Positions 2,171 through 47,625 of a DNA stretch of 64,000 nt are shown here, piece by piece (position 1 is the stretch's first letter; every line of letters begins with the position of its first letter). Below the pieces are notes generated by a model. That model was not told where the DNA came from. It did no database searches and saw nothing but the letters and a program-made list of their open reading frames with translations. The translations under genes and the position numbers were made by a program. Source of the DNA: an uncultured Dysosmobacter sp. (GTDB lineage: Bacteria; Bacillota; Clostridia; Oscillospirales; Oscillospiraceae); assembly GCF_947631635.1 (NCBI RefSeq), contig NZ_CANRMB010000002.1, positions 62,001-126,000 on the forward strand, in the 5' to 3' direction.

Positions 2171-2265
2171 CTAAGTCATAGCTTGTAATGAATCGAATAT
2201 CTCCCAACCTTTATCTTCGTGATGCAGAGCAAGCGCCGCTGCTAAATGTTTTGCATTCATGATAT
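2171..2265 (-). pseudogene. C-terminal fragment of an unrecognised protein, cut by the structured repeat
   Basis: The minus-strand ORF 2171-2356 ends in about 30 plausible residues (MDYIMNAKHLAAALALHHED and onward), but its first half is translated from the structured repeat at 2263-2446. I read it as the tail of a gene whose upstream part has been replaced by the repeat, or as a chance ORF. No family recognised. Confidence 0.25.
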
Positions 2266-2446
2266 AGTCCATTAACTCGAAAAATCGCACGCGATTTTTC
2301 AAACAGGCGATGCCCGCTGTGCGTAAAGCACACAGAGATTGCCTATGAAATTCCAATCAAGGCCGCGGTCCGCGGCCTGTCACAGCGCACATGCGCTGTG
2401 ACACTTGAAAAGTGGATTTGCTACTTTTCAAGTTATTTGGCAAGAA
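2263..2446. repeat. structured dispersed repeat, copy A (about 184 bp)
   Basis: A block of nested hairpins: GAAAAATCGC with GCGATTTTTC, CTGTGCG with CACACAG, GGCCGCGG with its complement, GTCACAGCGCA with TGCGCTGTGAC, and ACTTGAAAAGT with ACTTTTCAAGT. The unpaired centre ATTGCCTATGAAATTCC aligns with the TTTCCTATGAAGTCAGG core of copies B and C. Its ends form an imperfect terminal inverted repeat (CCATTAACTCGAAAA versus CCAAATAACTTGAAAA, reverse complement). It begins with TATAGTC like copy C. Most diverged of the three copies. Confidence 0.55.
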
Positions 2447-24640: not shown

Positions 24641-24835
24641 AGATAGCCAACGCAGCCGAAAAGGAGAACATGCGCCTGTTCAACCGACGGGCCGAGGGTC
24701 CGCCAGTGCGCAAGGCGCATGTGCGTTTCCTATGAAGTCAGGCACAGCGGGCCGCATATACGGTCTGCAGCGCCGCGTATACTCCTCGCATTCTCAGCGG
24801 ATATGCAAAGAAACATGCCACACATGGTACGTCAT
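24641..24835. repeat. structured dispersed repeat, copy B (right half degenerate)
   Basis: From about 24650 this aligns with copy C: CGCAGCCGAAAAGGAG (C has CGCAGTTGAAAAAGAG), then TTCAACCGACGGGCCGAGGG and GTCCGCCAGTGCGCAAGGCG, then the near-identical core GTGCGTTTCCTATGAAGTCA with GGCACAGCGGGCCGCATA. After about 24770 the similarity fades and no matching right-hand terminal repeat is found. It occupies most of the 24380-24886 gap between the sigma-54 region and the MocR gene. Confidence 0.65.
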
Positions 24836-24838
24836 CTA

Positions 24839-24893
24839 CGTATAGAAAATCGTATGGATACAGCTCAGCCGTATCCATACGATTTTCTATACG
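24839..24893. repeat. perfect 23-bp inverted repeat (long hairpin)
   Basis: CGTATAGAAAATCGTATGGATAC is followed after nine bases by its exact reverse complement. The right arm overlaps the last codons of the MocR gene. It is A/T-mixed without a T-run, so it is not a classical intrinsic terminator, though it could stall or stabilise the MocR transcript. Confidence 0.7.
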
Positions 24894-39022: not shown

Positions 39023-39688
39023 TTATTTCCAGGTAAAATGGTCTCTGCCCGCTCCTATTTCAAAATGGTATTTTACGATCCCCAGATCCACTCTGGAATA
39101 AGGGCCTCCGGCGGCGTCCGCCCGGACGGAATTTCCATCCAGGGTCAGCCGGAATTTCTGCTGGTTCACGGCGGTGGGGGCCAGGAGGGCCGCCTCCATC
39201 CCCGCGCGGAACCAAGCGGGCATATCTCCATCCACCCGGCAGAGCGCCTCCATGGGCTTGCTTTTATGGGGGACGCCGTGGGTCGTGCCGTATCCCAGCG
39301 CGATGACGCAGACCAGCTTCTCCCCAGGCGCCACGGTACAGCGGCATTTTCCCCTTCGGAAGGTCAGCGCCACCCAGCAGCTGTCCAGCCCAAGCTGCGC
39401 GGCTTTCAGCACCAGGCGCTCTCCGTAATAGCCGATCTTTTCGTCCAGCTCCGGTCCTTTGGGGCCGACCAGCGCCAGGTAATTCCGCACGCCTCTGAAT
39501 TTGCCGTAGTGGGCCATGATCCCCTGAAATGCCTCAGGCTCATCTGCCGCCAGCTCTATGTGCAGGCCGCCCTCCCGGCTGCAGGCAGCGGTCTCCTCCC
39601 GCAATTCCGCCAGGACCTCCGCCGGGATGGGGCGGTCCGTATACTGCCGCACCGCATGGCGGCGTCTGATGGCTTCCAATACTTCCAT
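39023..39688 (-). CDS. nitroreductase-family protein
   Basis: A 221-residue flavoprotein of the nitroreductase family. The N-terminus EVLEAIRRRHAVRQYTDRPI is the typical FMN-binding RRSxRxY region, with GERLVLKAAQLGLDSCWV and APTAVNQQKFRLTL also fitting the family. The ATG at 39688 lies 8 bases after GGAGGAG; the in-frame GTG at 39697 would overlap that site. Reduces nitro or quinone compounds, or acts on an unknown flavin substrate. It stands alone between the serC terminator and a structured repeat. Confidence 0.85.
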   Translation of the reverse strand: MEVLEAIRRRHAVRQYTDRPIPAEVLAELREETAACSREGGLHIELAADEPEAFQGIMAHYGKFRGVRNYLALVGPKGPELDEKIGYYGERLVLKAAQLGLDSCWVALTFRRGKCRCTVAPGEKLVCVIALGYGTTHGVPHKSKPMEALCRVDGDMPAWFRAGMEAALLAPTAVNQQKFRLTLDGNSVRADAAGGPYSRVDLGIVKYHFEIGAGRDHFTWK

Positions 39689-39723
39689 ATCCGTCACTCC
39701 TCCTCTAATCTAATAAATGTGGA

Positions 39724-39915
39724 TATAGTCAGCGCAGTTGAAAAAGAGCTTGTGCTCCTTTTCAACCGGCGGACCAATGGTCCGCCGGCGCGCAAGGCGC
39801 GCGTGCGTTTCCTATGAAGTCAGGCACAGAGGGCCGCATACGCAGCCTGCAGCGCTGCACAGCAGCATTGCACGGAAAAGAATCCAAAGGATTCTTTTCA
39901 ACTGTGCCGACTATA
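39724..39915. repeat. structured dispersed repeat, copy C (192 bp, best preserved)
   Basis: Bounded by a 21-bp terminal inverted repeat with two mismatches (TATAGTCAGCGCAGTTGAAAA and TATAGTCGGCACAGTTGAAAA). Inside are hairpins GTTGAAAAAGAGC with GCTCCTTTTCAAC, CGGCGGACC with GGTCCGCCG, GCGCGC with GCGCGC, and GAAAAGAATCC with GGATTCTTTTC. The central unpaired segment TTTCCTATGAAGTCAGGCAC is shared with copy B. No ORF inside. It overlaps the 3' end of the ArsR gene. It behaves like a MITE in its ends and like a folded RNA in its interior. Confidence 0.75.
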
Positions 39916-40269
39916 GCCCGTGTCGGCAGCGCTGCGTATCACCGCGCAGATGTGCTCCGCCAGGGTCCGCAGTTTTTCCCACTGCTCCGTGTCCGCGTTG
40001 GGATAGTAGTAGTTCCGGGCCCCCTCCCTGTGCATACGGACAGCGCCCGCCTCCCGCAGGACGCGCAGATGGCGGGACACCGCCGGACGGCTGAGGTGCG
40101 TCCGCTCCGCCAGCTCTTTCGCCCGCAGGCCCACCTGCTCGCTCTCCAGCAGCGCCAGAAAGACCCTCTGCCTTGTCTCGTCACCCAGCGCCGCGAACAG
40201 CCCTTGCAGCCCTCGGAATTCCTCCGCCAGCGCTGTCCGCATCTCCACACACTCCGCGCATGCTTCCAT
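39898..40269 (-). CDS. ArsR-family winged-helix regulator
   Basis: A 123-residue ArsR/SmtB-type regulator: LQGLFAALGDETRQRVFLAL, then the recognition helix region LSRPAVSRHLRVLREAGAV and the wing MHREGARNYYYP. An N-terminal CAECVEM cysteine pair (residues 4-7) could bind metal. The ATG at 40269 follows AAGGAGGG; the ORF-track TTG start is weaker. Its last five codons and stop (YSRHS) are translated from the terminal repeat of the structured element, so its C-terminus was redefined by that insertion. No target gene is obvious nearby; the nitroreductase is a candidate. Confidence 0.82.
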   Translation of the reverse strand: MEACAECVEMRTALAEEFRGLQGLFAALGDETRQRVFLALLESEQVGLRAKELAERTHLSRPAVSRHLRVLREAGAVRMHREGARNYYYPNADTEQWEKLRTLAEHICAVIRSAADTGYSRHS

Positions 40270-40461
40270 CTGCTCTCCCTCCTTGGTCAAAAGCTTGGGA
40301 CCATTATACCACAGCTCCTTCTCTTTGGCATATTGGGAAAGAAAATCGAGCCGCCCGCCTCGCTTCCATTTTCTAGTACATTTTTAGCCTATACATGGCT
40401 GATTTCCCATTTTTTGCAGCTTTTTTTAATTTTTTCACGATTTTTTAACTGCCACATCTAT

Positions 40462-47432: not shown

Positions 47433-47449
47433 ACGGTCAAAATTGAATC

Positions 47450-47625
47450 GCTTAGATAGAGGCGCGGTATTCATCAGTACCCTCCGGCAAGGCCAGGCAG
47501 CCGCCGTTGGAGAAAGGGAACACCGCCGAAGCGCGGGAAGCTGCCTGGCTTTTCGCCGCTGGGTCGACAGAGAACATCTGTCGGACTGTCACAAAAACTT
47601 TGTGAAGCGCTATCAATGGCTGTCG
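47450..47625 (+). promoter_or_regulatory. lysine riboswitch (L-box)
   Basis: The segment carries the conserved L-box elements in order: GATAGAGGCGCG, then ATCAGTA, AAAGGGAACACCGCCGAAGC, CGCCGCTGGGTC, and GGACTGTCACAAAAACTTTG, closing with GCGCTATC, which pairs with the opening GATAG to form P1. These match the B. subtilis lysC element closely. It is followed by a terminator hairpin and then a polar amino acid ABC transporter, so lysine binding should stop transcription and repress uptake. This identifies lysine as the likely transported amino acid. Confidence 0.92.

Follow-up and report, generated by a model that had tools for sequence, protein, structure and literature searches.

By target and partner, the nearest described case to the repeat analysed here is RUP of Streptococcus pneumoniae, with its partner IS630-Spn1 (PMC2229807, PMC3049150). 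RUP is likewise a short, multi-copy element with IS630-like terminal inverted repeats (TIRs), a TA target, strong base-pairing and insertions into genes. RUP is, however, 107 bp in length and its partner IS resides in the same genome, whereas the present element, compared with it by description, measures 192 nt, seems to be composed of two halves and has no partner that we could find in the source genome. More generally, the IS630/Tc1-mariner transposase inserts almost only at TA, which it duplicates, and ISY100 and the other IS630/Tc1-mariner elements share TA insertion, TA duplication and TIRs with the present repeat; ISY100 is autonomous, whereas our element carries no transposase (PMC2170065).

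Correia/NEMIS elements of Neisseria are also small TIR elements with TA termini and strong hairpin potential, and are known to affect neighbouring genes; they display a 24-bp TIR together with IHF, RNase III and promoter features, while a promoter scan of the element described here found none (PMC2229807, PMC2649163). In Coxiella, copies of the MITEs QMITE1 and QMITE2 extend 1–50 bp into functional genes at their 3' ends, an overlap also seen in our case, and in one strain a MITE supplies the last 33 residues of EnhC; QMITE2, which belongs to a different host, has direct repeats of 7–9 bp and is not TA-targeting (PMC5896051). With the RUP, Correia and Coxiella QMITE precedents established, the repeat belongs to a known kind. 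A search of the open-licence literature for Dysosmobacter and Oscillibacter found no account of this family. The case reported below is a new family of an established type, in a new host and with unusually clean empty sites.

The repeat between the ArsR and nitroreductase genes

The repeat was found in the window, i.e., the whole stretch of 64,000 nt that was analysed (contig NZ_CANRMB010000002.1, positions 62,001 to 126,000), which derives from an uncultured Dysosmobacter sp. whose draft assembly (59 contigs, 94% complete) is the sole genome for the species. The relevant features, in window positions, are as follows.

39898–40269, minus strand: winged-helix regulator of the ArsR family, with a conserved ATG at 40269 that gives 123 aa (Pfam HTH_20/HTH_5; start shared with G073 and G013)
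39724–39915, minus strand: repeat, 192 nt with both TA copies counted, TATAGTC...GACTATA (from its exact ends, the genome family and empty sites in four relatives)
39726–39913: element proper, TAGTC...GACTA, 188 nt
39898–39915, minus strand: TIR, end A, reading (Y)SRHS and the TGA stop of ArsR
39724–39741, plus strand: TIR, end B, TATAGTCAGCGCAGTTGA
39914–39915: target TA on the ArsR side (from comparison with the empty sites GG(A/C)TATCC)
39724–39725: target TA on the nitroreductase side (from comparison with the empty sites)
39818–39915, minus strand: half-element A, alone elsewhere in the genome as ~100-nt elements
39698–39723, minus strand: nitroreductase RBS (AGGAGG) and the orphaned codons that once formed the ArsR 3' end, now beyond the element (from alignment to the empty sites)
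39023–39688, minus strand: TM1586-type nitroreductase, next gene after ArsR (Pfam PF14512, E 2.8e-77)
24643–24776, minus strand: decayed copy of the same family (81% match within the window)
2263–2443, plus strand: copy of a sister family, with a TATAGTCCATTAACTCGA end, diverged, its far end approximate

Of the interval (nt 39898–39925) given in the first-pass annotation, nt 39898–39915 read TATAGTCGGCACAGTTGA on the minus strand and are exactly one TIR, while nt 39916–39925 are host sequence and lie outside it. The same 18 bases terminate four other copies with no mismatch (C11, C16, C19 and C23), and the TIRs of the two ends, TATAGTCGGCACAGTTGA and TATAGTCAGCGCAGTTGA, are identical at 16 of 18 positions. 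Searching the genome with the repeat returned 32 matches, nine of them near full length (82–100% identity), with about 20 recognisable copies; the family, which is real and multi-copy, is present in 19 out of 86 genomes of the genus. A transposase gene is absent from the 192 nt, and an Rfam search of the element gave no match at gathering scores. Being short, multi-copy and devoid of transposase, with TIRs and with an insertion documented by empty sites, the element has the features of a MITE.

The middle of the element (CTGTGCCTGACTTCATAGGAAACGCA) resembles an inverted end A placed beside end B, and half-element A, ~100 nt in length and ending in CTGTGCCTGACTATA or close variants, stands alone at four other genome sites (G000:C1:241423, C8:70516, C18:25821 and C18:60750; L014, L015, L018 and L019), all four matches ending at query position 123. 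On these grounds, the full 192 nt look like an end-to-end fusion of two half-elements.

Empty sites and hairpin folding

Orthologous ArsR–nitroreductase loci without the repeat were retrieved from four genomes of the same genus, namely G073, G013, G092 (whose ArsR is without its middle and was used for the gene end only) and G007. All four read GG(A/C)TATCC, where the window reads GGC-TA-TAGTC...GACTA-TA-TCC. Once the flanks of the window were joined with a single TA, the alignment was continuous (GGC-TA-TCCACAT in the window versus GGATATCCCAAT in G073, GGATATCCACAC in G013, GGCTATCCCCAT in G092 and GGCTATCCCAAT in G007). Judged from this alignment, the insertion is precise at TA, with duplication of the TA, a duplication of two bases next to TA-rich element ends and therefore dependent on the empty sites. 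Two further copies, C1:266745 and C38:21264, have empty sites in G073, G013, G080 and G090, the local alignment being looser at C1:266745. The mobility that had been proposed from the first reading of the locus is thus borne out, both by the base-precise empty TA sites at ArsR and by the empty sites at these two other copies.

The nitroreductase lies directly 3' of ArsR in the relatives too; in the window it starts from the ATG at 39688, within an ORF reaching a GTG at 39697. Just past the repeat, in the orphaned ex-codons, the window has 8 nt more than the relatives, after which AGGAGG is intact.

The strand fold of the element is very stable (−106 kcal/mol, z −8.9). In an alignment of 27 copies (window 39724–39915 plus 26 related ones, alignment A1), 32 of 63 pairs were changed on both sides, and 119 double-changed cells were counted versus a shuffled mean of 35, and versus at most 20 with the partners slid, the shuffle control being inflated by the relatedness of the copies and the structure being derived from the same alignment. 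Moreover, palindrome-correcting mutation could be the source of the compensatory pattern; for all these reasons, selection on RNA is to be regarded as a possibility behind the hairpin covariation and not as a finding. That the hairpin chain is kept by selection, with the copies acting as structured RNA or ssDNA modules with portable stop codons, placed at the ends of genes and between genes transcribed together, seems to us unlikely. The compensatory changes across copies raise a testable question, namely why the hairpins are kept.

Stability, compensatory changes and the position between adjacent same-strand genes would also fit a repeat retained at this very site for a role in RNA, as an attenuator or as a site of processing or stability between ArsR and nitroreductase, with the new tail incidental. 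Against this, copies are found at unrelated loci, none of the four relatives has the repeat here, the covariation is family-wide and not specific to the ArsR site, and the coding strand of the element shows no terminator-like U tract, so that we consider retention as an RNA element improbable. A promoter and terminator scan of the element toward the nitroreductase found none.

The new end of the ArsR gene

The ArsR ORF (nt 39898–40290, minus strand) reaches a TTG at 40290, the ATG at 40269 being the likely start. Its product belongs to ArsR/SmtB by its winged-helix HTH domain, with both Pfam models above cut-off (PF12840, 43.5 bits; PF01022, 39.6 bits), and terminates with ...ADTG-YSRHS-TGA, the stop falling at nt 39898–39900. 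The C-terminus is thus GYSRHS in the window, versus GYPNLKEE (G073), GYPHMEEDL (G013), GYPHTEEEF (G092) and GYPNTEEEL (G007) in the loci without the repeat. The first-pass annotation had suggested comparing repeat-free orthologues to see whether they diverge exactly at TATAGTC: all four part company with the window precisely where the TA of this motif stands and have other C-termini, and the YSRHS end was absent from the repeat-free genomes found. Its attribution of YSRHS and TGA to the repeat is right for S-R-H-S and the stop, but not for the tyrosine, which is ancestral (GY in four of four orthologues); since TAT is present in all the empty orthologues, the novelty is confined to SRHS and the stop.

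The AlphaFold2 model of ArsR, built on 21 sequences, has a mean pLDDT of 90.9. Its last helix runs from residue 95 to 117, and the final three residues average a pLDDT of 53. The swapped residues (aa 120–123) are thus predicted to be outside the fold, past the last helix, and with the replaced tail outside the folded domain the regulator was probably kept after the insertion, presumably together with its function. The dN/dS of ArsR versus G073 (0.12/0.38, ≈0.3) was computed with the changed tail included and both lineages pooled. These data, with the HTH domain above the Pfam cut-off, agree with the earlier proposal that the end of the gene was redefined without destroying the gene.

An ArsR inactivated by the insertion and now decaying, with a short tail that only seems intact, would be consistent with the orphaned codons past the element, whose 8-nt difference in length from the relatives may reflect relaxed constraint there. 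Nevertheless, the HTH domain is entire and no lesion other than the changed tail was found, the dN/dS versus G073 is ≈0.3 and the predicted fold is complete; ArsR tails, furthermore, vary naturally among relatives. Decay of the gene is thus very unlikely. As for an assembly or binning error at the repeat, it is hardly credible even in a draft of 59 contigs with a multi-copy repeat, as the junction is precise to the base and the repeat is flanked by the very genes that neighbour each other in four independent relatives; a false join would not restore the right flanks.

IS630-type ends and other recoded genes

The lack of transposase, the TIRs and the TA target together conform to the IS630/Tc1-mariner pattern, and a non-autonomous MITE of this type is the best reading of the repeat. 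As deduced from the empty sites, the TA target is duplicated (GG(A/C)TATCC becoming GGCTA-TAGTC...GACTA-TATCC). A DDE_3 (IS630) transposase search of the source genome, in its 94% complete assembly of 59 contigs, found none; the transposase may be missing from the assembly or lost from the genome. DDE_3 matches were detected in 13 of 86 genomes of the genus. An IS630 element of 878 bp in G031 (L155) has the ends TATAGTAAAACCAGTTGAAAA and TATAGTTACCACAGTTGAAAA, matching the repeat imperfectly, and one of 937 bp in G068 (L165) carries at both ends TATAGTAATCCTACTT, close to the sister family described below. By sequence, the ends are thus shared, albeit imperfectly, with autonomous IS630 elements of these relatives, none being found in the source genome. 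Because the IS630 elements of relatives carry matching ends, we infer that an IS630-type transposase moved the repeat in trans. The IS630 copies of G034 were also considered as parent and rejected, their ends, TAGAGC(A/G)(A/G)TTCTCA, not matching.

The proposed course of events is the following. A 188-nt MITE, for which an IS630-type transposase presumably acted in trans, inserted at the TA within a TAT (Tyr) codon 6 or 7 residues upstream of the ArsR C-terminus, the TA being duplicated on insertion. The TIR brings a stop within six codons in two of three entry frames (Y-S-x-x-x-stop or immediate TAG) and, in the frame of ArsR, Y-S-R-H-S-stop has supplanted tails like Y-P-N-L-K-E-E-stop. On the far side the nitroreductase RBS survives and the gene pair is retained, with ~190 nt of stable hairpins now lying between the two genes, which may act on the mRNA. 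We hold this explanation as a whole, comprising element insertion, TA duplication, tail swap, survival of the gene pair and mobilisation in trans, to be very probable. The base-precise empty sites document how a small mobile repeat can recode a regulator gene at its end and leave both the protein fold and the following RBS untouched.

Among the frames entering the repeat end, frame 1 reads Y-S-x-x-x-stop, frame 2 runs on for longer without a stop and frame 3 meets TAG at once. The sister family (TATAGTCMATTCACTTGA), ~183 nt in length and with ends TATAGTC(C/A)ATTCACTTGA, has at least 12 copies in the source genome, and at G000:C30 (L112 2039–2221, L221) one of its ends provides the tail YSPFT-stop to a TrmB-like methyltransferase that is fused to DUF4275; the orthologues of this protein have other tails and stop no more than a few residues after CGPYF. 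In G078 (L146), the YSQRG-stop of an amidohydrolase-family ORF also appears to be supplied by such an end. Since a sister-family end likewise recodes the TrmB-like gene, annotators of the genus should expect repeat-derived Y-S-x-x-x endings. Other copies of the repeats also contain the stops of many ORFs, but these were reading-frame artefacts, and such cases were counted only with family or orthologue support.

Several copies lie directly 3' of a stop codon (TGA-TATAG), and the copy L008 (G000:C3:51071-51265) starts right after the TGA of an ORF that, by reading alone, resembles glyceraldehyde-3-phosphate dehydrogenase. Elsewhere in the window, a near-perfect 27-bp inverted repeat with a 1-nt spacer (CGTATAGAAAATCGTATGGATACAGCT) was observed at nt 24839–24893, and a lysine riboswitch (Rfam RF00168, 101.8 bits) at nt 47449–47620.
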